A DNA stretch of 64,000 bases from a virus. The notes under the pieces are model-generated. The model saw nothing but the letters and a program-made list of their open reading frames with translations, had not been told where the DNA came from and searched no databases. Position 1 is the first letter of the stretch. Every line of letters starts with the position of its first letter. Positions 28,001-60,059 of the stretch are shown here, in pieces. The stretch is taken from IMG/VR virus record IMGVR_UViG_3300008261_000001, positions 1-64,000 of that record. One strand, 5' to 3'. The position numbers and the translations under genes are program-made.

Positions 28001-31000
28001 CTAGCGGTTCGTCAGACTCTTTAGTGCAAATAGATCAGGCTTCGGATAAACCGAGCTTTCCATTTTAGCCAAAGTCCCTTGAGTCCGATGTGTCCTCGTT
28101 TTAATCCAAGCCATTCGTGACTCCCTCGCCTGTAAAACACCCAACCCATCATCCAAGTCACTCGGCAAACCTGAGCCCAACTCCCCATAACCCTCCGTTA
28201 TTAAAACAGAGTCCTCTATCACAACACGCCTGTCCAAGACACTTAAACAGGTGTTTGTGTTCACAAAAGGCTTTGAGCTTGTTAAGCCCTTAATGTTGTC
28301 CAACAACAACTCATTAGACGGATGTGTAGGATCCCCCTCACCCACAAGGCTCATGTAATCGTCTGCCTCATAGTCTGCCCAACTGACCATGTCCGTAGGA
28401 AACGACATAAACCTACGCACACGCTCAGACCAAGATAGTGTCCTCTCCCGATAAAATAAGAAGTCTTCAGCTACGCTCTGCACCAACCCATTTTTCATCC
28501 GAACTATCCGATACGAGAAGGGATGTACGCTATCGGTAGTCGTCGAATAAGTGCCTCCCTCCACCCCTGAGGTCACCCTTAAGGGATTTCCTAAATCTCC
28601 ACCAACACTAGGCAAGAGGTTGTAGGTGGACTTATCCTTAGTCCCTACACTACCGCTTACTATGAGGTAATCAAGTCCAACCTCTAGAACACGATACGAA
28701 CCTCTGTTGTCGTCCAACTCATGTGGCTCACCCTCTATGTACCCAACCTCACCTAGCTTGCCCTGATCCCCACGCGGTGGATACCCATACTCTACAGGTG
28801 AACTATCCAATAACGCCCCTTGTGGATCTATCACAAGGTAATCACCCACAAGGACACCAAGATCTAAGAAGTCTGCATTGGTATCCACGAGCTTACCCTC
28901 TAGAGGAACGGATATGCCCTCTTGTGCAGGAGACTCGTAAAGCACCTCAAACCCCTGTGAGAAGTACTCATCAAACGACTGCAACTGAGGAATAAGCCCA
29001 CCCACCCTTGTCTTAATCCTAAAGCTGTAAGCCTCCGCGATAGATGAACCCCTTACCCAACTACAAGTCAACTCCCCATCCACAACCCCCACAACCCTCA
29101 AGTACAACGCCTCTGTTCCGTCCTCCTTGTGGATAAACACATGGTCTCCCATCTGCACCACATTAGAGAAGTTTCCAATTTGGGTATCCGTCCCATCGGT
29201 GTCTTCTTCAATCAGATAGTTCACTTGCTTGGGAGTTAGGACATACACGCCCTCGCCCTCGTCTGTAAGATTTAACACCAAGCCCTCTCTCCCCTCATAA
29301 ACATAACGCAAAGAGGAGACACCCTCAACCACACCCTTTAGGACATCGGTGAACCTACGAGGTCTCCTAGCCACCAACTGCACCCTCTCTGTGAAATCCC
29401 ATGCGGGTAAATCCGATAGGGTGTAATCTATGGGGCTTCTTACATTACTACTGCCGTCTCCAAATACACTCTTGGTTGAATAGTCTCTCACCAACAGCGG
29501 AAAAGACTTATCCAAGTATATTCCACCTAAGACCGTCACGCTCATGGATAATACATCTAGGGGCAATAAGAACCCCTCCCCATAAGAGTTAACATCGGTG
29601 ACTTCACCTAAAGAACCCCACTCTATTCCGTAAACGACTCCGTCTGTACCCCTAAGAGCCGTAAGAGATGACGAGGTATCCCCTCCACCAGCTACACCAA
29701 GTGTAAACTGAATACTTCCACTTAAAGTACAAGGAGCTTCGCTAGGCACAAGGGAGGTCTTAACAAGGTCGAACTTAGCCCTTGTCCCACCTGTAATCAC
29801 TTGCCCATACGCCTCACCCAATATGTCGCTCAGTTCACTGAAGTCCACGACCGTCCCATCTAAATACGCCACGGAGCCATCTACAAAACTAAAGCTCGTC
29901 TCTGTCCTTGAGGCATAAGATATCCGTAGGGCTGATCGACCATAGACGGAGTCGTACACACCCAAAGTCGTAGACATGGGTCTAGATGAAACCCCCACTG
30001 AGTCTAAAATAACAATCAAGTCCCCAACAGAACCAAAGAAAGAGGACAACTCGGTGTTGTCTGTACTCAGTGTGGCTGAGATACCCAATACGCTTAAACC
30101 TGTCACCTTAGGGAATGAAATAACAACAGACTGACTCTGTGTCACAATCTCTCTAATCTCTTCGTCTGCGACACCCTCCGTGTAAAACTCCACTCGGTGA
30201 AGTCCAGAGTTATGCCCAGAGCTAACAACTAAGAAATCTCCCTTCAGAATATTATCCGCAGGTAAAGAGAGATTATGGATAACACCAGATAGGTTATCCG
30301 TAGAGCCCCCACTCAACACCAAGCCCATGTCCCCCTCACCGACATAGATAACACCTTGTTCGTTGACCTCCGACCCTACCATAATGGATAAACCGACCCC
30401 ACTCAAAGCAACCGAGTTTTCACCGCTTGAGCGATATCCGTAGATTAATAACCCATCGGATAAGATTTCTTTAATCTCAAAGGCTGAACCCCCATTTATG
30501 ACGGACGAGTTATTCACATCGGAAGATACGATGTGAGTACCACCCCCACCACCTACGGACTCATAAACAAGAAAACCGCTGTCCAAAACCTCAACCGAGG
30601 ACGAGTAGCTACCTTGTACCTCATAAGAGTCAAATAATGGATAACTCTCCCTAATAGAGACACGATCCGATGGGATATAAGCCGATGGGGATTGGGCTGT
30701 ATAGCCCAAGTGGAAATCCATAAACCAAGCCGAACCCACACCTGTGTAGATGGTCGTACCGCTTGTGGTGGTTAAGCCACCCAAGCCCCCCCAAAATGAG
30801 GAAGCTCTGAATAACCAAGTCTCACCCGTAAAGGCAGGAGCAGGTGGGACATTGGGATTATCTATGGGTGAGTCCACGATGGTGAGCGTGTTGCCCACAT
30901 AGGTGAAGGAAGTCATGTTGTCTGGTGAGTACGCCACATAACCAAAGCCAAACCTTTGGAAACTCACCGTCCAATCTGTCACGCCCCTTGTAAAAGTAAA

Positions 31001-34000
31001 CCGACCATATCGGATTAACCCTCCGTTCAAGTACACATCTAGCCGTATCTCGTTACCTGTGCTACCCTCGCCCGCAAGGTAGTCGAAATAAAGGAAATAA
31101 TCTCTGTACTTGGTGTTGGAAAACACGAGTTCTACAGTCGATACATCGTACTTGCCAGAGCTAGGGATACCCTCGCTCAAGGTCTCCGTTACGCTCACAC
31201 CGACCGCGTCATCGGATAAGTGATAAACGAGAGCGTTATTGACTCTGTAAGAGAGAGAACCACCCGAGTTCGAGGCGGAGAACCTCGGTGGCATGATTTC
31301 AGTTCCGTTTATCCAACCCAACTCCAGAAGCCTGTCCTCGAACACCATGAGGTCTGATTGTCTAGGTGTTTGTACACACTCACCAATCGCTGTGGCTACA
31401 GAGTAGTCATATGTTGTGACAAGGACACCATCCACGCCCTCTACGCCATCGTCCCTAACCTCATCTGGATAAACATATTCAAGGCTCCCATTGTTGTCTG
31501 CTTGTGCTGTAAGTCTCTCTAAATAGGGAGGAACCGTGACGAGAATATCCTTTTCTGTTAAGGGCTTCTTAAAGGGTATAGACTCGTCTCCGTCGTCGTT
31601 TACACCCAATCCCATGAGTGCTGGATACACATAAGGTTCCAAGCTAGTGTTTCCAAAAGTAACCGACCCCTCAAGAGCCGTGTGTGCCGAGGGGACATTT
31701 TGACCTAAGATTTCTTTAATAGGATAGTTAGGGTCAGACCCACTTGGCAAGGTTATGTCGAATATCTCACCCTCTGCCGACCTTAGTCCCACATCGACAC
31801 CCACACGATAAACACTGCTGTCTCCTTCTTCGTCCAAATCGAGGGCAAAGCTCTGAACAATCGTGTCTCCCCTCTTGGGGGCAAAAGCTGAACCAAAGGC
31901 TGTTATTAAGCTACCCTCCAAGACCACCACACACCCATTTACGATTTCTTTAATCCTCGCGTTCCGAGGTTCTCCAGTTAATGAAAACACAGAGTCATAG
32001 GCATACTCCCCCTCGTTCAATACGGGAGAGAAGCCAACACCATCAACACCCAACTGTAGCTTATCCCCCACACGCAACCCATTAAATACCCTTTCTAAAT
32101 TCCCCACCACCACATCGGATAAATCCCCACCCTCAGATAAGAACCTATCTGTTATTGGATAACCAGTAAGTGGGTCTATGGGAAACTCACTCAGTGGGAC
32201 AGCGGATAAGATGAGGCTAGGTCTTCCTACAGAGCTAGGAGCATATTCACTAAACCCATTAGGCGAATACGACACAACTCTGAACCTTGCTCCCCTCTTA
32301 GAGAGAGTTAAGCTGGATATGTTTTTTAATGAACCGAAAGCTGGGTTTTCTACGAGTGCTATGACATCCGTAAAAGTGCTCTCAAAGTCCCTAAAAAAGA
32401 ACAACTCCCCACCGCCTCGATAAGTCATCATCTTAGCCGACTGCGGATACAGCCTCGACTCTACACTCGGTTTCCACAAGGGCGAATAAATGGGAGCGTA
32501 CTCATACTTAATGAATGGATAACCCACACCCATGTCATAAGACATACGCTTTTCATAAGAAACCAAAGCGTAGTCGTCTATCTCGTTCTCTATGAGATTC
32601 CTCTGTGTAGATTTCTTCTTCTTAAAGTCCAAGACGCTCGATACACCCTCTGCATCTATCAAGTATCTTGGATAAATCTCCCTTGTGATGGGGTCTTCTA
32701 ATCCCGCACCACACCACTTGTCTCCCCTCAAAAGCTCGAACTTAAACAACCCATCCGCATCACCCACGACCTTGCCCGTTGTACTTGAGACAAGCTCGTC
32801 CACTGGCTTAATAAAACCATCGTATCTCTTTATCCAATTTCTAGCCACCACATCAGAGGCGAGAAGATCAAAATATCCAATAGACCTCCCTCGCTGAGTG
32901 TTTTCTGTCCGAGTTATCTTCGCCCCAAATCCCCTCTTGTCACTCACCTTGAGACTATCCAATAACTCTCTCTCTACCTCGCCTTCATAGGTTTGTTCAG
33001 CGACTGTTCTGAAGTAAAACACATCTGGGGCATACACCATGCACTTAGCGTAAATCTTCTTGCCCGTGTGCTCAGTCGGAACTCTCCTTTCCGTAAAACT
33101 TAACTCGTACTTCGGATACTCCACCTCGCCTGTGGCTAAAACCCTCTCACTGACCACCCCTTGTGCCGTATGCTTTAAGTAATAACTCTCACCCACAGAT
33201 ACGCCCAAACCACCCAACAAGTTTAACACATCCGAACTCAGAGCGTAGTCAACCCCCTCTACAAGCTCATAACCCAAACCCTCCGACTCCACATAACGGA
33301 TAAGAGTATAGCCCTTATCCGTTAAAACCTTGCTCGATAAAGCTAAAGATTTATCCCCCACTTTAAGCACAGCCCTCATCGACACCAATAACTCACTCAC
33401 ATTGTGTTCTGCCGTTTGCCCCCTCACTCCTAAAATAGTCACCCCATTAATCAAAGACACCGAAAGTACCTCGTAAGCAATACCTGCCAACATCAATAAA
33501 CCACCCACCTTAAATAAATCCCTCAAGTCACCCTCTACAGAAATCTCCCCACCACCCAAACGGCTCTTACAAACAACCCCACTTACGCTCTTGAAAACAT
33601 AACCAGATGCCCTCAAGACACTCACATCACTCGACTTTATCCCATACCTCGCAGGAGGATACACGGATAAGTTTCCATTAGAACCGACCGCAGTCACCCT
33701 AAAGATATGTCCAGATAGATTTAACAAATCATCTACAGCCACTAAACCACTCGGTATCCAACTCGAAATCGTACTGCTACCAATACTTATCTCTAAGTCC
33801 TCAACCTCTTTTATTCCAGTAGATACCCTAACCGAATACTCCCCACCCATAGACCTCGTCACATAATAACTAACACGCACATCCCCCACCGCGTTCACAT
33901 AAATAATCCTGTCACTCGTTATGCTCGCACCAGATGTGACAATAGATGCCCCGTCATACAAAGTAAATAAATCACTATCCAAGACCACCCCTCGCTCCAA

Positions 34001-36697
34001 CCCCCCATAACTGTAAACTCCGCTCTCCAATAAAACCGCACTCTCCTCCCTAACTAAAAATAAAACACCCTCCAAGACACGCTCGCTCTCCGTAAAAGGA
34101 ATATAAGACACCTCAACACCCACACCAGACTCTAAAGGAGACTCAAAAGATATAGCACCAGTGCTAACCTCATATCTCACACGCCCCCTGTCCAATAACT
34201 CCATCAACTCTAAAGCAACACCCTCACCAAATGGACTCGATAAGTCGTCCAATGACGCACTCACCTCCGCCCTGTCCGTTAAAACATCTCTCGGAACCCC
34301 CTTGTAATAACACACACCCACCCAACTGCTATCCAATACCCCATCGCTCTCAAAATATATCCGTCCACTCACCGAGTCCCTCGTAAAACCATAACCATCT
34401 ACAATAACACCCTCCTCATAGGTGACACCATCAACCTCTAATCTGTAATAACCATCTCGCCTCTGAATATCCGATATGTAAAAATCACCCAATAACTCCC
34501 TCTTTAAAATCACTAAGGGATAATAAACCGAACCCCCAACCTCCCTCAAATATAAACTAGATGTAGGATGCACATTGGATAAATCCATACCCCAATTGCG
34601 AATAATGTACACCTCACAACTACGCCTCTCACTGTAAAGCCTCTCCCAACACTCCCCCAACACTAAATCAGAACCACCCACACCCCCACCCTCATGCTCC
34701 TCCCATATGTTAGAGGATTCATCTATCCTATCCATACTCGATAAAACCCCATCCCCTGAGATAACACGCCTCCATAAAACCACCCCAGATGTTATCTGCC
34801 TAACAAAGTTCCCCTCCGCCTTATCCAAATCCTCTAAACGACCACTACCCACCACATTAAGCCAACCCCTCAGAAATCTTAAACGCCCCCCCAACCCATA
34901 CAAAACATCAAAATCTACACCCTCACTCAAAACCTCACCACCTATAGACAAACCACCCACCAACGACAAAACTCCACCACTCGTCTCTAAACCATCCAAT
35001 ACCCCACGCACATAACCACTACGAGAAACAACACCCAACCATGTAATCGAGTTATCCATATCCAAACCATACTCAATGTCCTCCCCCTTCGTTAAATAAC
35101 CACCACCCTCCACCCTAAAGTGCCTGCTACCCGTTGCGTCCGCCCCACCCCTAAATAAAGACACCTCACCCAAACCACTCAGCAGACTTAAAGATAAACC
35201 CCCACCACCGACCACACCCACCTCCTCGTCATCATAACTTACATAACCACCCACACTAAGTGAACCCACACTTAAAAAGACACCACCCGCCCAACGCTCA
35301 TGTGGCACTAAACCCAACTTATCCAAATCCCCAGACACAGACTCCCCTAAGACCCTTATGTGTCCATAACGATCCACATCCACTAAACCCTCCCCCCCTA
35401 CAAGATCCCCCCCTACCCACGACACCAAATCCCCATCAACTAAAATACTCCCACTGCCCGATAAAGGCTTGCTCGATACCATACCCAAACCCACCCTGTC
35501 CATACCCACTAACCCCGTGCCGTACTTGGCCCCCGTTAAATCCACTCGCCCCCCTGTGTACACCCTCCCAAAGTCCCCTGAGCCCAACGATACATACGCC
35601 ACACCCACCTTACGCTTCTTAAACTCAGGTACATCCTCTACATACTCACACAATAAAACATCCCCACTCAATAACCTCACATACGAACCCAATAAATAAC
35701 CCCTAAAGAAACCACGCCTCACCCCCTCACCCAATCCGTCCTTCTCCCACTCCCAACCACTCACCCCAAATGAACCCTCCCCTATTACCCCACTTTCCAA
35801 CTCACTCTCCGACTCCATAAACACACGATCACTACATAACGCTAACCCCTCATACACCAACTCGTAATCCCCCGACCAATACACACGCCCAGCCTCCCTA
35901 TCAAACTCAAAATCAGTCAAGAAATCCCCCACACCACCCACTCGCCTCAATAATGGAAACTCATTCAAACGAGGACAAGGAGATAAATAATCTCCTGACC
36001 TTAACGCACTACCGCCCACTAAAGATCCCCTGATTAAGATTATCCCCAAACCCCTGTCCTCGTCACTCAACGAACCCCACCTTAACTCACTACCCTCACT
36101 ATCCATTAACCCATATGAAGAAGATAAATCACCACCCCCAACAAGAATGTCCTCACCCACTGTTAGCCTCTTCGAACCCACCACCAACTCGTCACCTAAC
36201 CTCAAACCCACTAACCCCCCATCACCCACTACACCAAATGACTCCCCACGACCCCCACCCAATAACTTCCATGTCGAACCCTCCCACTTAAAACGCTCCC
36301 TCACACCATCGTTTGCCGTCCACCAATAACTCACCCCCTCCAAATATACCAACCCATCCGGCTCACCCCCCTCTGATTCTGCTACTCCTAAACCACTATC
36401 CAATACCTCTAAACTCTCCCCCCCACGAGTCGCTGATCTTATCCTATTCCCACCAAGCTCCACACCCCCATACCAAATACCACCCCCTACAGATACCCAA
36501 CTGATCTCCCTCGATACATCACCCACTGCACCATCCCCCGCAGATATCCATAAGACTTCCCCCTCCCCCCTTATAGCCTCATAGTCATAACCCAATAAAT
36601 CCACCCCTCCCCTCACAATACGACTGCCCAAACCCGTCAGCGTGTTGTTCCCATCCCCAGACCTTACATCTAGCCTCAGTAATGTTAATGTACTCAT
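28001..36697 (-). CDS. Giant virion protein, 2898 aa
   Basis: One uninterrupted 8.7-kb frame. The N-terminal 1,300 residues are rich in Gly, Ser, Val and Leu with repeated beta-strand and turn patterns (GGGLSLSLLSG, SVGGYVSYDD); the middle and C-terminal parts are ordinary beta-rich virion sequence, including an aromatic stretch (FQRFGFGYVAYSPDN) and a helical Arg/Lys-rich end. Size and position suggest a tail fibre, baseplate wedge or adhesin scaffold; no catalytic motif is seen. The coding strand is nearly free of C at the 5' end and balanced at the 3' end, a striking internal gradient. A TATAAT box precedes it. Confidence 0.7.
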   Translation of the reverse strand: MSTLTLLRLDVRSGDGNNTLTGLGSRIVRGGVDLLGYDYEAIRGEGEVLWISAGDGAVGDVSREISWVSVGGGIWYGGVELGGNRIRSATRGGESLEVLDSGLGVAESEGGEPDGLVYLEGVSYWWTANDGVRERFKWEGSTWKLLGGGRGESFGVVGDGGLVGLRLGDELVVGSKRLTVGEDILVGGGDLSSSYGLMDSEGSELRWGSLSDEDRGLGIILIRGSLVGGSALRSGDYLSPCPRLNEFPLLRRVGGVGDFLTDFEFDREAGRVYWSGDYELVYEGLALCSDRVFMESESELESGVIGEGSFGVSGWEWEKDGLGEGVRRGFFRGYLLGSYVRLLSGDVLLCEYVEDVPEFKKRKVGVAYVSLGSGDFGRVYTGGRVDLTGAKYGTGLVGMDRVGLGMVSSKPLSGSGSILVDGDLVSWVGGDLVGGEGLVDVDRYGHIRVLGESVSGDLDKLGLVPHERWAGGVFLSVGSLSVGGYVSYDDEEVGVVGGGGLSLSLLSGLGEVSLFRGGADATGSRHFRVEGGGYLTKGEDIEYGLDMDNSITWLGVVSRSGYVRGVLDGLETSGGVLSLVGGLSIGGEVLSEGVDFDVLYGLGGRLRFLRGWLNVVGSGRLEDLDKAEGNFVRQITSGVVLWRRVISGDGVLSSMDRIDESSNIWEEHEGGGVGGSDLVLGECWERLYSERRSCEVYIIRNWGMDLSNVHPTSSLYLREVGGSVYYPLVILKRELLGDFYISDIQRRDGYYRLEVDGVTYEEGVIVDGYGFTRDSVSGRIYFESDGVLDSSWVGVCYYKGVPRDVLTDRAEVSASLDDLSSPFGEGVALELMELLDRGRVRYEVSTGAISFESPLESGVGVEVSYIPFTESERVLEGVLFLVREESAVLLESGVYSYGGLERGVVLDSDLFTLYDGASIVTSGASITSDRIIYVNAVGDVRVSYYVTRSMGGEYSVRVSTGIKEVEDLEISIGSSTISSWIPSGLVAVDDLLNLSGHIFRVTAVGSNGNLSVYPPARYGIKSSDVSVLRASGYVFKSVSGVVCKSRLGGGEISVEGDLRDLFKVGGLLMLAGIAYEVLSVSLINGVTILGVRGQTAEHNVSELLVSMRAVLKVGDKSLALSSKVLTDKGYTLIRYVESEGLGYELVEGVDYALSSDVLNLLGGLGVSVGESYYLKHTAQGVVSERVLATGEVEYPKYELSFTERRVPTEHTGKKIYAKCMVYAPDVFYFRTVAEQTYEGEVERELLDSLKVSDKRGFGAKITRTENTQRGRSIGYFDLLASDVVARNWIKRYDGFIKPVDELVSSTTGKVVGDADGLFKFELLRGDKWCGAGLEDPITREIYPRYLIDAEGVSSVLDFKKKKSTQRNLIENEIDDYALVSYEKRMSYDMGVGYPFIKYEYAPIYSPLWKPSVESRLYPQSAKMMTYRGGGELFFFRDFESTFTDVIALVENPAFGSLKNISSLTLSKRGARFRVVSYSPNGFSEYAPSSVGRPSLILSAVPLSEFPIDPLTGYPITDRFLSEGGDLSDVVVGNLERVFNGLRVGDKLQLGVDGVGFSPVLNEGEYAYDSVFSLTGEPRNARIKEIVNGCVVVLEGSLITAFGSAFAPKRGDTIVQSFALDLDEEGDSSVYRVGVDVGLRSAEGEIFDITLPSGSDPNYPIKEILGQNVPSAHTALEGSVTFGNTSLEPYVYPALMGLGVNDDGDESIPFKKPLTEKDILVTVPPYLERLTAQADNNGSLEYVYPDEVRDDGVEGVDGVLVTTYDYSVATAIGECVQTPRQSDLMVFEDRLLELGWINGTEIMPPRFSASNSGGSLSYRVNNALVYHLSDDAVGVSVTETLSEGIPSSGKYDVSTVELVFSNTKYRDYFLYFDYLAGEGSTGNEIRLDVYLNGGLIRYGRFTFTRGVTDWTVSFQRFGFGYVAYSPDNMTSFTYVGNTLTIVDSPIDNPNVPPAPAFTGETWLFRASSFWGGLGGLTTTSGTTIYTGVGSAWFMDFHLGYTAQSPSAYIPSDRVSIRESYPLFDSYEVQGSYSSSVEVLDSGFLVYESVGGGGGTHIVSSDVNNSSVINGGSAFEIKEILSDGLLIYGYRSSGENSVALSGVGLSIMVGSEVNEQGVIYVGEGDMGLVLSGGSTDNLSGVIHNLSLPADNILKGDFLVVSSGHNSGLHRVEFYTEGVADEEIREIVTQSQSVVISFPKVTGLSVLGISATLSTDNTELSSFFGSVGDLIVILDSVGVSSRPMSTTLGVYDSVYGRSALRISYASRTETSFSFVDGSVAYLDGTVVDFSELSDILGEAYGQVITGGTRAKFDLVKTSLVPSEAPCTLSGSIQFTLGVAGGGDTSSSLTALRGTDGVVYGIEWGSLGEVTDVNSYGEGFLLPLDVLSMSVTVLGGIYLDKSFPLLVRDYSTKSVFGDGSSNVRSPIDYTLSDLPAWDFTERVQLVARRPRRFTDVLKGVVEGVSSLRYVYEGREGLVLNLTDEGEGVYVLTPKQVNYLIEEDTDGTDTQIGNFSNVVQMGDHVFIHKEDGTEALYLRVVGVVDGELTCSWVRGSSIAEAYSFRIKTRVGGLIPQLQSFDEYFSQGFEVLYESPAQEGISVPLEGKLVDTNADFLDLGVLVGDYLVIDPQGALLDSSPVEYGYPPRGDQGKLGEVGYIEGEPHELDDNRGSYRVLEVGLDYLIVSGSVGTKDKSTYNLLPSVGGDLGNPLRVTSGVEGGTYSTTTDSVHPFSYRIVRMKNGLVQSVAEDFLFYRERTLSWSERVRRFMSFPTDMVSWADYEADDYMSLVGEGDPTHPSNELLLDNIKGLTSSKPFVNTNTCLSVLDRRVVIEDSVLITEGYGELGSGLPSDLDDGLGVLQARESRMAWIKTRTHRTQGTLAKMESSVYPKPDLFALKSLTNR

Positions 36698-42092: not shown

Positions 42093-44321
42093 TCATTTAA
42101 CGAGTCCATTACGGATATTATAGGCGAAGAGGAAGTACTCAGGGTTCTTTTTAGCAAGGGAGGCGAGTGCTTCCCTGCTTTGGAACGCCTCCATCGTGAC
42201 GGTAACGATTTCGGAAGCAGTATCTCCAGGGTAGAGCTTACCAGCATAGTTGCTTGGTGGGTTCTTCATGTCCAAAGAGTACTCTCCCGACGCACTACAA
42301 GCTCTTACCGTCTTTTTTGGATCGTTGACTTGGTTGCAGTAGAAAGCAGTACCGTAGTGTCTAATCTCTGGGCAGTAGTACTCAAGAGAGTGCATAACTT
42401 CATGTATAGCGACATCTGTACCGCAGTCGTACCCTACTTGGAGGGTTGCACTTTGATTCCTGTAGTTGTTTCGTGCGTGTGCCCGTCCTCTTTGAAGAAC
42501 CCAAATGATTTTCTTCAAGTTGAAGGACGGATACTGCTTACAGATTTGAAGTGCGAATAAGCCTGCTGTAAGGAGCTTACTGATTTTAGAGCCCTCGTTA
42601 GATTCCCAGAGTTCTCTTGCCCTATCTGTCACTTGGGGTAGCCCCCCAAAGAAAGGGTTTCTGTAAGTGTCCTCTAGGTCTTGGTCAGACTTCACCAAGT
42701 GTAGATCCACACCTAGTTTTTTGTACTCCTCGAAGATGTCTAGAGGTATTGGAAAGTCGTCTAGGGACTGCCCATCTAAGAGGGCGAGGTGGGGGTTGTT
42801 TGAGGAGGGTTTGATGTATTCTAAGCTCTTTTTATCTAGCTTTCTTTTTTCTATGGCAACCCCCCACGGCTGAGAATTATAAAACTCTAGAACCTCATCT
42901 ATGCTTTGAGGGGGTGTAAAATCGCTGTTAAACCTAAACCCTCCCTCTTTTGAGGACTTATGGAAAAGTTCAACGAAGCCCACATCCTCCAATATCTCTA
43001 TGTAGGCATCCTTTTGTCCAGGGTTTCGGTGAATGAAACTGAAGAACTCTTCATACCAACCCACAATCGTGTCTCTAGGAGGTTGGTACGCGGGCAGTCT
43101 ACCAGGCTTGTTCGGGTGGTTTCTGATTTTAAGGATAAGATCCGCATACTCTTTTAGATGAGAGTCAAAGTCCACCAACTTAAAAAATGGGACTCTATGG
43201 ATTGAGTCTCCCACGATGTAGAAGTAGTTCGCTTGCTGAATGAGTCTCATCTTTGTGGCAGGTTCTAGCCCGTCAAGGATTACCTTTTCGGCTTCCGTGA
43301 TAGGAGCCTCAGTAGTTGACTTCCCATATAAAGGACTTCCAAAGCGTATATTGAAGGGTGCGGATTGTTGATCCACGAGTGGTTTTAGTTGAGAGAACGA
43401 TTTTCTACTCCTACCAAGTTGGGTTTTAAATATGTCGATGAGATAACCATACGCCTGATAGAGTTGTTCGTTGTCCGATTGGATAACGCTCTCTTCCGTC
43501 TTGGACTCAAGCAAAGGGACGAACTTACGATACGCCTCGTTCATGATTGCGTTGTACTTTCGAGTCGCTTCTTTCTTATCCATGCCCAACAACCTTCTGC
43601 GTAGGTGGTCGTGGGTCGAATCATAACCGAACCTCGCCCCATCCATGTCTTCTTCTTTGAGGATAAGCCCTTGATACACACGAGAGGACTCGTCCACCAA
43701 GTCGCTCGGATTAACCTCTTCTACGACCACCTCCTTATCCACATCTACGATAACGGGAGGGGGTACATCTAGGGGCAAGGCTTGGGCATAACCGCCCACC
43801 TCAAACATCTTCTTAATGAGCAAGTTCGTGAGGCGATCTTCACGAATCTTTAACTCAAGATCTATGTCTATTATCTCTTCCGCGTGTCCATCTCTCCAAG
43901 ATAGGATAAATAACGAGATGGGTGCAGGATTGGATAAGTAAGTGCCACCCTTTATGGAAAAATCGGTCTTCTGCATATCGGGCTTCAGCTTGAGAAGATC
44001 CTGTAGAAATCTATCCATTTTATTGGGACTGGACTCTATTGCTTTGACTTGACCACCGACCCAACCGAGAGCTTCCACCTCATAGAAGCCACCGACCTTT
44101 TTCCATCTAGGGTCATTGGTGGGTGCTTGTACGAAATAGAAGTCGTACTCTTTTCCAATCTTGGTGCTTTTGACCCTCCACTTCTCCCACGACAGAGACA
44201 TTTCTCTAGTGAGGAAGTTTTCCAATGTGCGGGGGTTGAACACCTTAAGGCGTTTTCTACCTGCTTCTAGGAGGCGGGCGATCATGGCTTTCTTAGCGTA
44301 GGTGTGGTGCTTGTAGTTCAT
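42093..44321 (-). CDS. Large protein with C-terminal HExxH zincin-like domain
   Basis: 742 aa. Near residue 640 lies AIHEVMHSLEYY, an HExxH zinc-binding motif, with a possible third ligand Glu in TASEIVTV about 60 residues later; cysteines cluster between (YYCPE, FYCNQ, RACSASG). The first 600 residues are unrecognised, helical and charged, with Pro/Asn-rich joints. Possible roles are a processing protease, a structural protein with a protease domain, or an injected effector. The N-terminal MIARLLEAGRKRLK is basic. Weak AGGAA site before ATG 44321. Confidence 0.65.
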   Translation of the reverse strand: MNYKHHTYAKKAMIARLLEAGRKRLKVFNPRTLENFLTREMSLSWEKWRVKSTKIGKEYDFYFVQAPTNDPRWKKVGGFYEVEALGWVGGQVKAIESSPNKMDRFLQDLLKLKPDMQKTDFSIKGGTYLSNPAPISLFILSWRDGHAEEIIDIDLELKIREDRLTNLLIKKMFEVGGYAQALPLDVPPPVIVDVDKEVVVEEVNPSDLVDESSRVYQGLILKEEDMDGARFGYDSTHDHLRRRLLGMDKKEATRKYNAIMNEAYRKFVPLLESKTEESVIQSDNEQLYQAYGYLIDIFKTQLGRSRKSFSQLKPLVDQQSAPFNIRFGSPLYGKSTTEAPITEAEKVILDGLEPATKMRLIQQANYFYIVGDSIHRVPFFKLVDFDSHLKEYADLILKIRNHPNKPGRLPAYQPPRDTIVGWYEEFFSFIHRNPGQKDAYIEILEDVGFVELFHKSSKEGGFRFNSDFTPPQSIDEVLEFYNSQPWGVAIEKRKLDKKSLEYIKPSSNNPHLALLDGQSLDDFPIPLDIFEEYKKLGVDLHLVKSDQDLEDTYRNPFFGGLPQVTDRARELWESNEGSKISKLLTAGLFALQICKQYPSFNLKKIIWVLQRGRAHARNNYRNQSATLQVGYDCGTDVAIHEVMHSLEYYCPEIRHYGTAFYCNQVNDPKKTVRACSASGEYSLDMKNPPSNYAGKLYPGDTASEIVTVTMEAFQSREALASLAKKNPEYFLFAYNIRNGLVK

Positions 44322-53637: not shown

Positions 53638-53697
53638 GGTTAAGGGCTAGAGGGTAAGGGGCTAGTGGGTAAGGGGCTAGAGGGTAAGGCTAGAGAT
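53638..53697. repeat. 15-17-bp tandem repeat GGGTAAGGGGCTAGAG
   Basis: Four units of the type GGGTAAGGGGCTAG(A/T) between two convergent genes, overlapping the stop of the leftward one. Same family as the repeats at 47996 and 50969. Confidence 0.88.
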
Positions 53698-54366
53698 GAA
53701 GGCGTTCATCTGAGAGACTGCATCTTCGGATAACAGATACTCCCTAGCATAGACGCTATCGCTCTGATCTTGTCGATTGGATAAATCATCTCCGACTTCG
53801 CTTTTAAGGTTGGAGGTCTTTTGCCAAACAAACCGAGAGTCCACCGAGGTCTCAAAGCCTATCCAAGAGAACATCTCTAGTAGGTGAGAAGAGACTTGTT
53901 GAGCATGAGCGTTATGCCCAGAGACGATTACACCGCACTTCTTTCCGTCTAAGGGGTTTTGTTCTCCATAGACGGATTTCCTATTCTCTAGGGTGTTGAG
54001 TCGCTCGATGATTTTTTGCAGTAGTGCCGAGTGGGATCCCCAACGAACGCTTGTGGAGAACAACACCGCGTCCGCCCAAGCGATGCCGTCATAAATAACG
54101 GGCATTTCATCTACTCCCCCATAAGCCTTTGGGTTTTCAGCGGAGAGCTTATGAGCCCAACAGCGATATTGACCTGCATCGAACGAAGCACAGTTGAACT
54201 TTCCGTCCGCATAACAGCTTAGGTTATCCACAATGTGGAGGTCGTTTGCGTTGATGTATCTTATCTCATGCCCTAGAGCTTTAAGCTCTTGTAAGGCGTA
54301 GGACAAGAAAGCACGGCTAGTAGATTTCTTAGCGTGTGTGGTCGTACTGATAGCTAGGATGTTCAT
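53677..54366 (-). CDS. Flavodoxin-fold NAD(P)H-dependent FMN reductase-like protein
   Basis: 229 aa. The N-terminal AISTTTHAKKSTSRAFLSYA is the FMN phosphate loop of multimeric flavodoxins, and SVRWGSHSALLQKIIERL is the second flavin-binding segment. Two cysteines (LSCYADG, FNCASF) lie between, as in iron-sulfur flavoprotein relatives. It would be a cytoplasmic flavoenzyme; the substrate is unknown. Only a weak ribosome binding site. Together with the SOD it hints at redox management during infection. Confidence 0.82.
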   Translation of the reverse strand: MNILAISTTTHAKKSTSRAFLSYALQELKALGHEIRYINANDLHIVDNLSCYADGKFNCASFDAGQYRCWAHKLSAENPKAYGGVDEMPVIYDGIAWADAVLFSTSVRWGSHSALLQKIIERLNTLENRKSVYGEQNPLDGKKCGVIVSGHNAHAQQVSSHLLEMFSWIGFETSVDSRFVWQKTSNLKSEVGDDLSNRQDQSDSVYAREYLLSEDAVSQMNAFISSLTL

Positions 54367-55269: not shown

Positions 55270-56541
55270 CTAGGAGGGGATCTTCACACCTAGACGATAG
55301 TATCTATTCTGAAGTGATAGGGGGCGTATGCCGAACCTCTTGGCTAGGGGGATTAAGTCTTTCTTTCTGGTGTTCTCGTCTACTAGGGACAGAAACTCTT
55401 CCCTAGTCATGTTTTGATACTCTTGTGTACCTCTGTTGGTGAGAGACTTCCACATCTTCTTACGGAGGAGTTTAATGTAGAGGGACATGGGCTTTATCCC
55501 CATACCCTCGGCTACATTTTTAAGAGACTCCATAGAGTCTATGTCCTTGATAACCTCGTTTAGCTTCTCATTGTCGTGTTTAATCTTCTCTTTCTTCCAC
55601 CCCTTATTTCGAGCTATAGTCCTCAAAATCCCTTCGCTCACCAACCACTCCTCTGAAAGCTCTTCGAAGGTCTTACCCCCCAATAATGCCTCGATGATCT
55701 TATCCCCATAAATATCCTCGGCCTGCTCCAACAGCTTAGGCTTAACCTTACGCTTGAGATTGGAGATCTTACCCCCTAAACCTTGCTTAACGAGGGACAG
55801 TCGCACTCCCTCCCGTGTTAAACCCACTTGGTCTCCAATCTCTTGCAAGGTCTGACCCTCTGCCCTCAGCATTGCAATCTGCTTGTCCACTGGACTTATG
55901 TTCACTCGGGACTTCAAGGTCAAATCGTTTGCCTTTAATACCCTCTGCAACCTTTGATAGTTATACCCCATTAAATCCGCTAACTCCCCCCTCCTCATCC
56001 CTTGCTCTATACCACCCTTGATCTTATCCAATTCTTCTCCACTAAGGATATAACCCTTTGCCTTGACGGTTAAACCCTTATTATCCATATAACGCCTCAC
56101 CGACCAAGCCGACCTCCCCACAACCTTAGACAACTCATGATACCCAAGCCCATCAGCTATGCCCTTATCCAATAACTTCCTCTCGGACACGGAAAACTTG
56201 TCCACATCCATAGAGAACTTATCCAACAAGCTCTTTATCCTCGGATAAGAGCAACCCATATGCACCATCAGCTCCGTAGTGTCCTTACCCTCGTCTATAC
56301 CCGCTTGAAGACGAGTCCTCACCGCATTCTCCCCACCCATAGCCGCAATCCACCTCGTTAAAGAAGCATGAGATAACGACTTCATTAAAGAAGGATTCAA
56401 CTTAAGATCCAACTCCCTCAGCCATATGTAAAAAGTCGAGACCGACACCCCCAACTCCGTAGCACACTCCGCAACAGATAAACCACGAGCGATAACCTGA
56501 GCTATCTTTGCCTTGTTCGGCACTATACGCTTCCTGCCCAT
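55270..56541 (-). CDS. Multi-helix-turn-helix DNA-binding protein (about 8 HTH)
   Basis: 423 aa from ATG 56541 (a GTG at 56553 is possible). About eight tandem HTH units: first SVAECATELGVSVSTFYIWL, fifth TLQEIGDQVGLTREGVRL, which matches sigma-70 region 4.2 closely, last KDLIPLAKRFGIRPLS. Units 5-7 align with units 3-5 of the protein at 40994-41776. The tandem design suggests binding to a long or repeated DNA target, as in phage transcription switches. No nuclease or kinase motif. No promoter module is recognised upstream. Confidence 0.75.
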   Translation of the reverse strand: MGRKRIVPNKAKIAQVIARGLSVAECATELGVSVSTFYIWLRELDLKLNPSLMKSLSHASLTRWIAAMGGENAVRTRLQAGIDEGKDTTELMVHMGCSYPRIKSLLDKFSMDVDKFSVSERKLLDKGIADGLGYHELSKVVGRSAWSVRRYMDNKGLTVKAKGYILSGEELDKIKGGIEQGMRRGELADLMGYNYQRLQRVLKANDLTLKSRVNISPVDKQIAMLRAEGQTLQEIGDQVGLTREGVRLSLVKQGLGGKISNLKRKVKPKLLEQAEDIYGDKIIEALLGGKTFEELSEEWLVSEGILRTIARNKGWKKEKIKHDNEKLNEVIKDIDSMESLKNVAEGMGIKPMSLYIKLLRKKMWKSLTNRGTQEYQNMTREEFLSLVDENTRKKDLIPLAKRFGIRPLSLQNRYYRLGVKIPS

Positions 56542-56629
56542 ATGCTCTCTCACTCTCTCCCCCCAACATTAGGGGGGTTCTAGGTGTCCTTTTTTACTTA
56601 TACAAAACCTCTCGGTCTTGTCAAAAAAC

Positions 56630-57433
56630 TTAGTGATCGTTAGCTTCGATTCCGGTCTTGGACTTAAGGAGCTTCTCAAGGTGTGAAACCACCTTGAGGG
56701 CTACCTCCTCGCCATCTGCCGCTGAAACTCCGTTGGGCAGATCTGTGCCGTCTAGTCCAAGACCGATGCCCACGAGCTTGATGCCCTCAGCTTGAGCTTG
56801 TAGGCGTAGGCTCTCTAAATATCTCTTGGTGTTACACTGACCATCGGTCAGGAAGAAGGCTATCTTATGCGTTGCATCTATCTGTCGAGCGAGGTCGAGG
56901 GCGGCCTCGGCATAACAGATCAAGTCCGTCCCACCTGTCGGATGACTATCCTTCATTTTCTTGAAGTGGTCGGGAGACCACTTCTCATGTGGCCACTTCG
57001 CCACGGCTACGATGGGAGAGTTAGCCGAGCTTGCACCTGTGGGTGCGTTGAAGTGGTACTCGTAAAAGCACCCAGCCACTGCCGTTTTAACACCTATCCT
57101 CTGACACCCATCTGCGAGGGCATCTATGAGGAGACAACACTCGTTCCACCACTTGGTGGTTTTACCTGTAGCTGTCTGTTGGGTGTAGTTCATGGAGTCT
57201 GACATATCGACCACGAAGCTAAACCCAGCGGACACCTCGGGAGAGGAAAAGATCCGCTCATAGCGGTCTTTGTTAACATAACCCGCGTTCACCGCCACCA
57301 CGCTCCGCGTGAGAGCGGAGCGGTTCAGACGGACACCGATGGGGCGGAGCCCTACGGCTTGGTTTGCCACCTCTAGCTGACGACGAATCTTGTTCAAACC
57401 ACCTTGTATGGACGACTTAATCTTCTGAGTCAT
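56630..57433 (-). CDS. VWA-domain protein (CobT C-terminal-like)
   Basis: 267 aa from ATG 57433, GGAG upstream; a start at 57463 would sit at the transcription start. A von Willebrand A domain with a complete MIDAS: DMSDSM at about 76-81, GGTD at 167-170 and LTDGQ at 195-199. In CobT this domain is fused behind an N-terminal zincin-like part and an acidic linker; here those parts are the separate gene 57504-58712. It probably works with the AAA+ protein at 58932 in a MoxR/VWA-type remodelling complex. Driven by the module at 57469-57497. Confidence 0.85.
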   Translation of the reverse strand: MTQKIKSSIQGGLNKIRRQLEVANQAVGLRPIGVRLNRSALTRSVVAVNAGYVNKDRYERIFSSPEVSAGFSFVVDMSDSMNYTQQTATGKTTKWWNECCLLIDALADGCQRIGVKTAVAGCFYEYHFNAPTGASSANSPIVAVAKWPHEKWSPDHFKKMKDSHPTGGTDLICYAEAALDLARQIDATHKIAFFLTDGQCNTKRYLESLRLQAQAEGIKLVGIGLGLDGTDLPNGVSAADGEEVALKVVSHLEKLLKSKTGIEANDH

Positions 57434-57468
57434 TTTATCTCCTCTGTGTGTTGGCTCTGTCACACCCT

Positions 57469-57497
57469 ATAATGAGGAGATTTTCAACTTGGGATAA
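57469..57497 (-). promoter_or_regulatory. Phage promoter module, variant -10
   Basis: Minus-strand TTATCC (57497-57492), 17-bp spacer, CATTAT (57474-57469), then AGGGTGTGACAGAGCC. The leader matches the family though the -10 deviates. Gives the VWA gene its own start, separate from the upstream partner. Confidence 0.65.
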
Positions 57498-57503
57498 CTT
57501 TTC

Positions 57504-58712
57504 TTACCTTTTTGAACCCCCCTTGCTGGGCTTGAACATAGAGCGATATATGGGCTTATGTCCATTCGGCACATAGAGGGCGTGATCGAGGTTCTTTGTG
57601 TTTTTCTCTACATCCTGTTGCATAGCCGACGAGGGGTCTAGAGCCTTACCCTCCCCCTTTAAGATTTTCTCCAAGTCCTCCAACTTGATGCCCTTTTTGC
57701 CCCCTACACGGCTCTTCTCGTCTGAGGGGTCTACCTCAGACGAGTCTCCATCTGCGGAGCCTTCACCACCCTCTGAGGGGTCTCCCTTACCCTTACCCTT
57801 ACCCTCTGAGGGATCTCCCTCTCCAGGCTCCCCCTCCCCCTTGCCCTTCGCCTCAAGGCCCTCACCATCCTCCAACTTCTCCTTTAAGAGATCGTGGAGC
57901 TTATTGATGATTTGGATAGCGACCACGAGGGGAAGATGTGCGGTCTCCTCCCACCGCGTATGGGTGGGCTTGAGGGTCTTCCATACGGGCTTTAAGGTCT
58001 CCACAAGCAGTCGAGCCTCCTCACAATACTCCTCATAGACCTTGAGGGCTTTCTCGTTCCTCCACCCCTTACCACTATCCCTCAGAGCCATCATAAAGTC
58101 TGAGGGGACACCTTGACCACGAACATCCGCCTCAAGTCCAAACACCCAATCTTGAACACTATAGAAGCGTCCCTCGGTGTCGGGATACAATAGAGCCATC
58201 CCTGGCTCAAGCCTCATATCTGCTGTGACATTCGCCCACTTTTTCATGTTCGCTTCCCCATAGGGGACAGACTGATCAAGGTGTGGAACAATCTTACTCT
58301 CGAACTCCTTGAAGGTGGGAAAGGGCATCGATGCCCTATCACAGATGCCATGTCCCGCCTCGTGGACACCACCCCCCACCCCCGCTGAGGCAGTGATGGT
58401 GCTGGCAGAAGAAGCAGAGGGAGAGGGCAGATAAAGCGTGACCCCTACGGGAGCGTTGGTGTACTGATTGTTTGCCTCGTGATAGATGGCGTCCAACCAC
58501 CGCCCCCTATTTGCATTTATCCGAAGACCCTCGACCCACTCAGAGGAGAGGGCGTTGGCGAAGCTCAACCACGGAAACTTAGCAGATATGCCGAAGGTGT
58601 TGCCCGCACGGACGACTTTTACATCTCCCACATCGGTGGGGAAAAATGCGGTCAAGCCCTTAAAGGCTCCCTCGCAGAACTTCAAGGGGTCTTTGGTGTA
58701 GTCAATGCTCAT
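57504..58712 (-). CDS. HEAGH zincin-like protein (CobT N-terminal-like)
   Basis: 402 aa. HEAGHG at about 117-121 with a likely third ligand Glu in NVTADMRLE at about 161-169, the HExxH...E layout seen in phage CobT-like and VWA-linked metalloproteins. Residues 275-345 are a Gly/Glu/Lys/Ser/Asp low-complexity linker, equivalent to the acidic linker before the VWA domain in CobT; the frame then ends with a basic tail. GAGGAGG before ATG; promoter at 58756-58784. Whether it is an active peptidase is unknown. Confidence 0.8.
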   Translation of the reverse strand: MSIDYTKDPLKFCEGAFKGLTAFFPTDVGDVKVVRAGNTFGISAKFPWLSFANALSSEWVEGLRINANRGRWLDAIYHEANNQYTNAPVGVTLYLPSPSASSASTITASAGVGGGVHEAGHGICDRASMPFPTFKEFESKIVPHLDQSVPYGEANMKKWANVTADMRLEPGMALLYPDTEGRFYSVQDWVFGLEADVRGQGVPSDFMMALRDSGKGWRNEKALKVYEEYCEEARLLVETLKPVWKTLKPTHTRWEETAHLPLVVAIQIINKLHDLLKEKLEDGEGLEAKGKGEGEPGEGDPSEGKGKGKGDPSEGGEGSADGDSSEVDPSDEKSRVGGKKGIKLEDLEKILKGEGKALDPSSAMQQDVEKNTKNLDHALYVPNGHKPIYRSMFKPSKGGSKR

Positions 58713-58755
58713 GTGAGCCTCCTCGTGTGTGTTGGGCGTTAGTTCCGCCTCACCC

Positions 58756-58784
58756 CTAATAAGCTCCCCCAGAGCTTGGGATAA
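58756..58784 (-). promoter_or_regulatory. Phage promoter module
   Basis: Minus-strand TTATCC (58784-58779), 17-bp spacer, TATTAG (58761-58756). Back to back with 58859-58887, so the zincin-like and AAA+ genes are divergently co-expressed. Confidence 0.8.
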
Positions 58785-58858
58785 TCTTTTTCAAAAAAAG
58801 ACACCCACCCCCCCTCGTCTGTCCGCGTATGTATAAGCCACAAAAAAACCGAAAAAGA

Positions 58859-58887
58859 TTATCCCAACCCAGAAACTCCCTTATTAG
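58859..58887 (+). promoter_or_regulatory. Phage promoter module
   Basis: TTATCC (58859-58864), 17-bp spacer, TATTAG (58882-58887), then TGGGTCACAGCGACAGAACC. Drives the AAA+ gene. Confidence 0.82.
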
Positions 58888-58931
58888 TGGGTCACAGCGA
58901 CAGAACCAACACACTCCGAAAGGACTCAAAT

Positions 58932-60059
58932 ATGCGGAAGCCCGCCTCCATCACCAAGCTCTTCACCACCACCTTCAACGGCATCACCCGCCCTCGCTCC
59001 CCCCTCACCGAGATCGAGATCTTGAACGCTGGGTTCGACCCAGCCAACCGCCCTGACGGGTATGTCGAGGGTGAGGATTGGATGGTGGATCTTTCCATTG
59101 TGCTCCCCCTCGGACACACCATCGTGCAGGGTCCAGCAGGTAACGGCAAGGACATCTTCGCCCTCGCCTACGCTCACGCTCACAACCTCCCCCTCAAGGC
59201 TTTCGCCTTCAAAGAGGGGGCAAACCCCCTCGATTGGATTAAGAGGGCAGAGCTTGAGGCAACCCCTCAAGGTGGCACTAAGACCTCTTATGTAGAGGGA
59301 GACCTCGTCAAAGCCTGCAAAGGGGTCACCATCAAGAGGGACTTCACCACCATGTCCTCTGACCTCCGCTCGGCTGTCAAAGCAGACATGGAGAAGCAAG
59401 AGTGGACGGTCACGGATAAGAACGGAATATTCACCATCACCGTCCCCGCACTTATCCTGTTCTCAGACTATGATCGTGCTACGCCCGACCAAGTAGAGGT
59501 TCTTCGCCAAGCCCTAGAGCTTGGGAAGGAGAGGCTCGCTGACCCCATCAGCGGAGAGCTGTTCCCCATCGCAAAGGGGACACGCTTTATCTTCACCGCC
59601 AACAGCGGTGCTGATGGTGATGGGGGTCGTGGCATGATCACACGCCCAAAGGACGCCTCTATCCTAAACCGTTGTCAGGGCATCTACGCCCCCCCTCCCT
59701 CAGCCAAGTTCGAGAGGAAGGTCGTTCAAGCCTCGTACCCATCTCTCACAGAGGAGGAGGTCAAGCTCCTTGTGGATTGCAATAGGGCTATCCGCAAGGT
59801 GGCGGAGGAGCAAGCTATGGGCATCGAGGTCTCTCTCCGCACAGCCCTCGCTTGGGCTAAGGCAACCCTCCGCTATAAAGAGGTTATGCCTAACCTCGAC
59901 TTCAAGAAGGCTATGAAGAAGAGCTTCGTTATCGTAAAGGGACACCTCAGCGAGGCTCACAACCACCAAGCTCTAGAGGGAGCTATTGACCCCCTCCTCC
60001 GCTCCGATGTTGTAGATAGCACCACCACAAACCCTAATGTATGCCCTATTGATATGTAA
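58932..60059 (+). CDS. cobS: CobS/MoxR-like AAA+ ATPase with altered Walker motifs
   Basis: 375 aa from ATG 58932 (AAGGA upstream). MoxR-clade AAA+ core: P-loop GPAGNGKD at about 67-74, strand ALILFSDYD at about 173-181 aligned with the Walker B strand of CobS, the LRQALELGKE helix, sensor-1 TANS and an R finger region ILNRCQ. Two catalytic positions deviate: Asp follows the P-loop Lys instead of Thr/Ser, and SD replaces DE in Walker B. It may hydrolyse ATP poorly or act as a nucleotide-gated scaffold. In phages this gene usually accompanies a CobT-like partner, here split in two. Confidence 0.85.
   Translation: MRKPASITKLFTTTFNGITRPRSPLTEIEILNAGFDPANRPDGYVEGEDWMVDLSIVLPLGHTIVQGPAGNGKDIFALAYAHAHNLPLKAFAFKEGANPLDWIKRAELEATPQGGTKTSYVEGDLVKACKGVTIKRDFTTMSSDLRSAVKADMEKQEWTVTDKNGIFTITVPALILFSDYDRATPDQVEVLRQALELGKERLADPISGELFPIAKGTRFIFTANSGADGDGGRGMITRPKDASILNRCQGIYAPPPSAKFERKVVQASYPSLTEEEVKLLVDCNRAIRKVAEEQAMGIEVSLRTALAWAKATLRYKEVMPNLDFKKAMKKSFVIVKGHLSEAHNHQALEGAIDPLLRSDVVDSTTTNPNVCPIDM

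Follow-up and report, generated by a model that had tools for sequence, protein, structure and literature searches.

Does a CobT-like protein that is encoded in two pieces, beside the gene for a CobS-like AAA+ protein, still form part of an ATP-driven machine in a jumbo phage, and if so a machine of what kind? The locus lies in the 290,179-bp virus record IMGVR_UViG_3300008261_000001, a tailed jumbo phage whose genes include those for terminase, portal and DNA polymerase; bases 1-64000 of that record constitute the window, the whole stretch of 64,000 nucleotides analysed here. We favour, at a probability of about 0.6, the reading of the three genes as a phage-encoded remodelling complex of the MoxR/CobS type, in which the CobT-like partner is split and the AAA+ protein has swapped Walker residues. 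An initial annotation had placed three genes at this locus, the AAA+ gene being divergent from the other two, and their coordinates are borne out:

56630-57433, minus strand: VWA-domain protein of 267 aa, the C-terminal half of a CobT-like protein, which aligns with fused CobT-like proteins over their C-terminal VWA region
57504-58712, minus strand: HExxH protein plus linker, 402 aa, the N-terminal half of a CobT-like protein, aligning with the N-terminal region of the fused proteins
58932-60059, plus strand (divergent): CobS/MoxR-like AAA+ protein of 375 aa, identified by family profile and fold match

Exchanged residues in the ATP site

The fold of the AAA+ protein is nearest to those of MoxR-type proteins (CbbQ, NorQ, CobS). 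A Pfam search with the single sequence returned AAA_5 (expectation value (E) 2e-4); the family profile, compared with solved structures, found CobS (E 4.8e-19) as its best match after midasin; and the predicted model, with a predicted local distance difference test score (pLDDT) of 84, found its best fold matches in CbbQ and NorQ. The family comprises 41 distinct members, 22-60% identical to the window protein. Both Walker motifs of the window protein depart from expectation:

59130-59153, plus strand: Walker A, GPAGNGKD, with Asp74 in place of the expected Ser/Thr (Asp in 40 of the 41 members, Glu in one)
59451-59468, plus strand: Walker B, LILFSD, with Ser178 for the expected Asp and Asp179 for the expected Glu (Ser in 26 and Thr in 15 of the 41 members, followed by Asp in all)

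The family's Walker A motif reads GxxGx(G/S)K-D (K-E once), and its Walker B motif consists of four mostly hydrophobic residues and then S/T-D. The canonical combination of GK[S/T] with DE occurs in none of the 41 members, every one of which combines GK[D/E] with [S/T]D; in contrast, nine related CobS proteins (from ICP2, ReqiDocB7, GMA7, three marine T4-like phages, an E. coli phage, a Sphingomonas plasmid and an Acinetobacter plasmid) all have GK[S/T] and DE, and none has the swap. Ascertainment was independent of the motifs themselves: the window and 17 relatives were found by way of terminase, blind to the Walker motifs, and a scan with a pattern lying outside both of them yielded 18 loci, L223 among them; the swap is present throughout both sets. 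The Walker B segment aligns without a gap to that of solved CobS (FSDYDRATPDQ in the window protein, FDEYDAGRPDV in CobS) and the predicted strand has Ser178 as its last residue, from which it follows that the hydroxyl residue now stands where the acid is expected, and the acid where the hydroxyl residue is. In an alternative register, with the modelled strand displaced by one position, the role of the Walker B Asp would fall to D179 and S178 would be an ordinary residue; if so, the residue after D179, hydrophobic in nearly all members, would come to occupy the place of the catalytic Glu. Codon reassignment, considered as a cause of the swap, is rejected: the codons are the ordinary GAC and TCA, and a clamp-loader-like open reading frame (ORF) of the record, at 109661-110887, which also encodes an AAA+ protein, has a normal GPYGSGKT. 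The initial annotation had missed the swapped residues.

A hydrogen bond joins the Walker A Ser/Thr to the Walker B Asp and is the proposed universal proton trap of P-loop nucleoside triphosphatases (NTPases). In the excerpts of a survey of these enzymes drawn on here, the two residues are described as strictly conserved and the replacement of either as costing activity; among the exceptions named in those excerpts are Gly in place of the Walker A residue and Glu in place of the Walker B residue, and a swap is not mentioned there (PMC9599734). No published exchange of residues between Walker A and Walker B was found in the open-access literature, and a family-wide reciprocal swap, new as far as searched, carries most of the interest of this locus. 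The loss of activity that follows replacement of either residue in other P-loop NTPases, again according to those excerpts, would fit a pseudo-ATPase, a ring that has lost hydrolysis through the altered residues and, fixed in one nucleotide-locked state, serves the VWA and HExxH proteins as a static scaffold. That explanation, the best-surviving of the alternatives, is nonetheless unlikely. The remaining catalytic positions, K73, D179, N224, R247 and R303, are identical in all 41 members despite their modest identity to the window protein, with the Walker A Lys, the acid after the Walker B position, sensor 1, the arginine finger and sensor 2 all invariant; moreover, neither change is found without the other and the one mirrors the other, a pattern unlike decay. 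The protein probably still binds ATP-Mg and hydrolyses ATP to some extent, the Asp-hydroxyl hydrogen bond of the swapped Asp/Ser pair being preserved with its roles reversed. The more encompassing proposition, of a clade of phage CobS-like AAA+ proteins that has a mirrored ATP-Mg site, is enzymatically active and has had its VWA/peptidase partner split in two several times, is tentative and stands at slightly less than even odds.

Two other features distinguish branches of the family. An insertion of ~30 residues just before Walker B (residues ~130-170) is confined to the window protein and its close relatives (L144-L148). A Ros/MucR-like zinc finger, CxxC...HxxxxH, lies N-terminal to the AAA+ domain in distant relatives (L151, L153-L160 and others) and is missing from the window clade; a profile search of 28 sister records matched just this zinc-finger stretch and no AAA+ domain, and in sister phages without an AAA+ match the same finger sits in other ORFs. 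Tunturi_5, with its distant terminase, and Atu_ph07 provided no convincing match to the AAA+ family, and PADLOC provided none to defence-system families.

A CobT-like gene in two parts

Searched against viral contigs, none of the three proteins returned a close relative, and a phage collection searched in the same way offered weak matches or none; single-sequence Pfam searches gave a weak match for the VWA protein (E 0.018) and no match for the HExxH protein. The evidence on the split comes instead from sister phages, reached by way of terminase, 45 of whose records were searched with the three window proteins. Fused homologues of 600-1000 residues, with both CobT-like halves on one chain, are found in related jumbo phages: L157 (897 aa) matches the HExxH protein with E 3.6e-7 and the VWA protein with E 7.1e-6, and the corresponding values are 1.4e-5 and 1.5e-5 for L159, and 6.1e-5 and 5.8e-5 for L155. 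According to iterated profiles, the HExxH domain of these proteins is N-terminal and the VWA domain C-terminal, and the fused proteins also match the VWA domain of CobT (E 2.7e-6) and a NorD chain (9e-6). Because single proteins of sister phages match both halves, the splitting of a CobT-like protein is confirmed by homology, beyond mere resemblance. The VWA and HExxH genes of the window are, by this sequence comparison, a true split of one gene, which is what the initial annotation had proposed in describing one CobT-like gene in two pieces beside a CobS/MoxR-type AAA+ gene; that the closest relatives might instead belong to unrelated families, the outcome that it had named as contrary to its proposal, is contradicted by the existence of the fused homologues. 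The two halves contain the following sites:

58350-58364, minus strand: HEAGH (H117-H121), putative metal site, HExxH being present in 41 of 41 rows
58206-58232, minus strand: N161..D165..E169 in a second conserved helix, candidate third metal ligand, with D165 and E169 in 41 of 41 rows
57678-57896, minus strand: Gly/Glu/Lys/Ser-rich disordered linker, by low pLDDT and composition
57194-57208, minus strand: metal-ion-dependent adhesion site (MIDAS) motif DMSDS, D76-S80 (D76-x-S78-x-S80), from sequence and invariant alignment columns
56927-56929, minus strand: further MIDAS residue T169, invariant column
56843-56845, minus strand: further MIDAS residue D197, invariant column

The invariance of H117, E118, H121, D165 and E169 in all 41 rows makes a metal site in the HExxH protein likely; the zincin-type requirement for HExxH and a third acidic ligand is satisfied, with D165 and E169 both candidates for the latter. 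The AlphaFold2 model of this protein has a mean pLDDT of 80, which falls below 50 at residues 286-338. The linker had been annotated as acidic, which is true in part: 22% of the 130-residue tail is Asp+Glu, but 18% is Gly. (L153, L158 and fused CobT-like proteins have a CPxCG...CxxCG zinc-ribbon-like segment after the HExxH domain that the window protein does not have.) In the VWA protein the MIDAS is complete, and its Asp/Ser/Ser and DG are conserved in 44 of 44 rows of the family alignment.

The survey of fused and split forms in phage genomes that the initial annotation had recommended divides the 41 AAA+ family members evenly: the partner is split in 19 and fused in 19, and is undetermined in 3, for which the contig end was reached or a part is missing. 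(L201 was scored as split on a short VWA gene alone, its HExxH gene not having been found.) The genes of the trio cluster in the relatives in which all three were found. On the tree, the split/fused state changes at least three times, and the window clade (nine rows; Shimodaira-Hasegawa-like approximate likelihood-ratio test support 99) is split throughout. A single origin of the split, with all split rows held together, is rejected (approximately unbiased test, p 0.0136, on a quick tree). The position of the break also differs: in the window clade the linker is left on the HExxH protein and the VWA protein begins at the VWA domain, whereas in the other split clades a conserved pre-VWA segment, known from the fused proteins, is left on the VWA protein. 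Independent splits are the simplest reading, and repeated splitting at differing points within one phage family is new as far as searched. Viral cobST clusters have already been published, and with them a split viral cobT: HHTV-2 resembles the window in having a CobS/CobT-like pair in a tailed virus, with the vWA as a separate ORF, but is an archaeal virus, and a cobalamin function was proposed for viral cobST (PLoS Biol 2021, PMC8651126).

Promoter modules and gene arrangement

A core, TTATCCCAA, is present in 17 copies in the window, against 0.64 expected, and a fuller module, TTATCCCAA-N12-18-[C/T]ATTA, in 27 copies in the record, against 0.05 in shuffles. The fuller module stands once upstream of each gene of the trio, in keeping with the separate promoter modules that had been assigned to the three genes:

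57469-57497, minus strand: promoter module upstream of the VWA gene
58756-58784, minus strand: promoter module upstream of the HExxH gene
58859-58887, plus strand: promoter module upstream of the AAA+ gene

The putative role of the module as a promoter is read from its position and repetition. Its copies are clustered at 38-60, 128-138, 164-168 and 272-279 kb and nearly all of them precede single small genes; the set is likely to be a regulon. Copies within the window span 38298-60180, the rest lying elsewhere in the record. With 27 copies, mostly before small genes, the module must be regarded as this phage's common promoter and as nothing peculiar to the trio. The suggestion that separate promoters would allow unequal stoichiometry was consequently too strong; in addition, the HExxH and VWA genes of some split relatives (L148 and L186) overlap by 4 nt, as in coupled translation. 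In the window, the same two genes are separated by a 70-nt gap, which holds a promoter and a ribosome-binding site, and do not encode a single chain. Promoter-like motifs of differing sequence also lie directly upstream of the trio genes in relatives: AACCCCTTAT in L144 (12 copies, 0.41 expected), GACCCCTTA in L146 (8 copies, 0.10 expected) and ACTTGCAATAAA in L150 (7 copies, 0.20 expected). Separate control of the trio genes is common among relatives but not universal.

The occurrence of promoter-like motifs gene by gene would also suit a functional separation of the two halves, the HExxH protein being a lone peptidase and only the VWA protein working with the AAA+ protein, and so would the arrangement in the split relatives L149 and L150, in which it is the VWA gene that adjoins the AAA+ gene, the HExxH gene being divergent. 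Yet in split loci the HExxH gene, where found, is never more than a few kb from the VWA and AAA+ genes, and many sister phages still have the two halves fused; functional separation is improbable, and a little more so than a pseudo-ATPase.

Other genes of the window, all on the minus strand, include one adjoining the trio (55270-56553) for a 427-aa protein, several stretches of which match many helix-turn-helix families; one for an NADPH-dependent FMN reductase-like protein (53677-54366); one for a 742-aa protein (42093-44321) with an HExxH near residue 640 and a PHROG of unknown function as its sole match; and a single ORF of 2898 aa (28001-36697), the longest in the record.

Remodelling and the cobalt question

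An auxiliary cobaltochelatase, in which viral CobS and CobT would use the CobN of the host and raise the cobalamin supply for nucleotide synthesis, has been proposed for viral cobST in general (PMC8651126), and the rank of CobS among the solved matches of the AAA+ family profile, second only to midasin, is in its favour. On the other side, the record, which is possibly incomplete, contains no match to the CobN family PF02514 (although the host could supply CobN), and the CobS equivalog model TIGR01650 likewise finds no match in it, the window AAA+ protein included. The ATP site differs from that of every CobS examined. HExxH is present in the CobT-like proteins of phages, and in all 41 members of this family, but is missing from Sphingomonas CobT and from the Acinetobacter plasmid CobT-like protein; the initial annotation had erred in taking a zincin-like HExxH part to be a general feature of CobT, while its remark that there is no sign of cobalamin synthesis agrees with the lack of CobN. 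The absence of CobN and of a CobS equivalog match, together with the absence of HExxH from Sphingomonas CobT, is evidence against cobalt chelation, which we regard as decidedly improbable. Since there is no CobN, and since HExxH is found in all members of the family and not in Sphingomonas CobT, the better reading is a remodelling complex of the MoxR/VWA type that includes a peptidase-like part. That the split is an artefact of a frameshift, of misassembly or of programmed frameshifting, such as is cited for the chelatase gene chlD (PMC8651126), can be dismissed, the same split being found in several separate contigs (L144-L150) and the window's intergenic gap holding signals for transcription and translation.

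The group 2.2 jumbo phages likewise have a MoxR-type AAA+ protein adjoining a vWA protein that begins with a metallopeptidase domain, but there peptidase and vWA are fused, whereas the window has two genes; virion assembly has been suggested for that pair (Viruses 2021, PMC7824862). In ICP2, ReqiDocB7, GMA7 and T4-like cyanophages, CobS- and CobT-like genes are adjacent or nearby and the CobT-like protein has an HExxH; unlike the window, the CobT-like protein is fused and CobS is normal at both Walker positions. Cellular CobS/CobT (PDB 9ujv, 9uka) has AAA+ and VWA parts homologous by profile to those of the phage trio, but CobS has normal Walker motifs (GKS, DE) and works with CobN, and Sphingomonas CobT lacks HExxH. 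NorQ/NorD (PDB 9qh6), among the best fold matches of the AAA+ protein, has a VWA partner with a MIDAS; its ring grips the VWA part of NorD and is thought to pull or twist the linker to the N-terminal part (Nat Commun 2026, PMC13036017). NorD is one chain and its counterpart in the window is cut.

These comparisons suffice for a provisional scheme, in which the association of the three proteins, their ATPase and peptidase activities and their target are all presumed. The AAA+ protein would form a ring, on which the VWA protein would dock, its MIDAS holding the target, by analogy with NorQ/NorD and CobS/CobT; the HExxH part would bind or cut that target, for which virion proteins and host proteins are both candidates. 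With the linker cut, force would pass through non-covalent contacts, or else the HExxH part would act on its own, as a peptidase or an adaptor. The cut in the chain excludes a mechanism based on the twisting of a covalent linker, unless the parts come together again by non-covalent association.

Several points weigh against the remodelling complex as drawn. The swap strikes two residues that are held to be essential, and could thus signify a dead ATPase. The trio is not located in the terminase/portal region, and small genes of no known function have promoters of the same type; both points disfavour a role in the virion. The zincin fold of the HExxH protein is weakly supported: Foldseek found no significant match to its model, and although the top three hits on structural re-alignment are HExxH peptidases (DUF885 proteins, Ste24p), their Z scores are just 4.5-5.0.

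For the biology of these phages, the cutting of a chain equivalent to NorD implies either that the system can be retained without a covalent link or that it works differently from NorQ/NorD. If the AAA+ protein is active, it is a natural exception to a pair of residues described as strictly conserved across P-loop NTPases, and the swapped family would allow the proton-trap proposal to be tested: is it the pair that is needed, or each residue in its own place?

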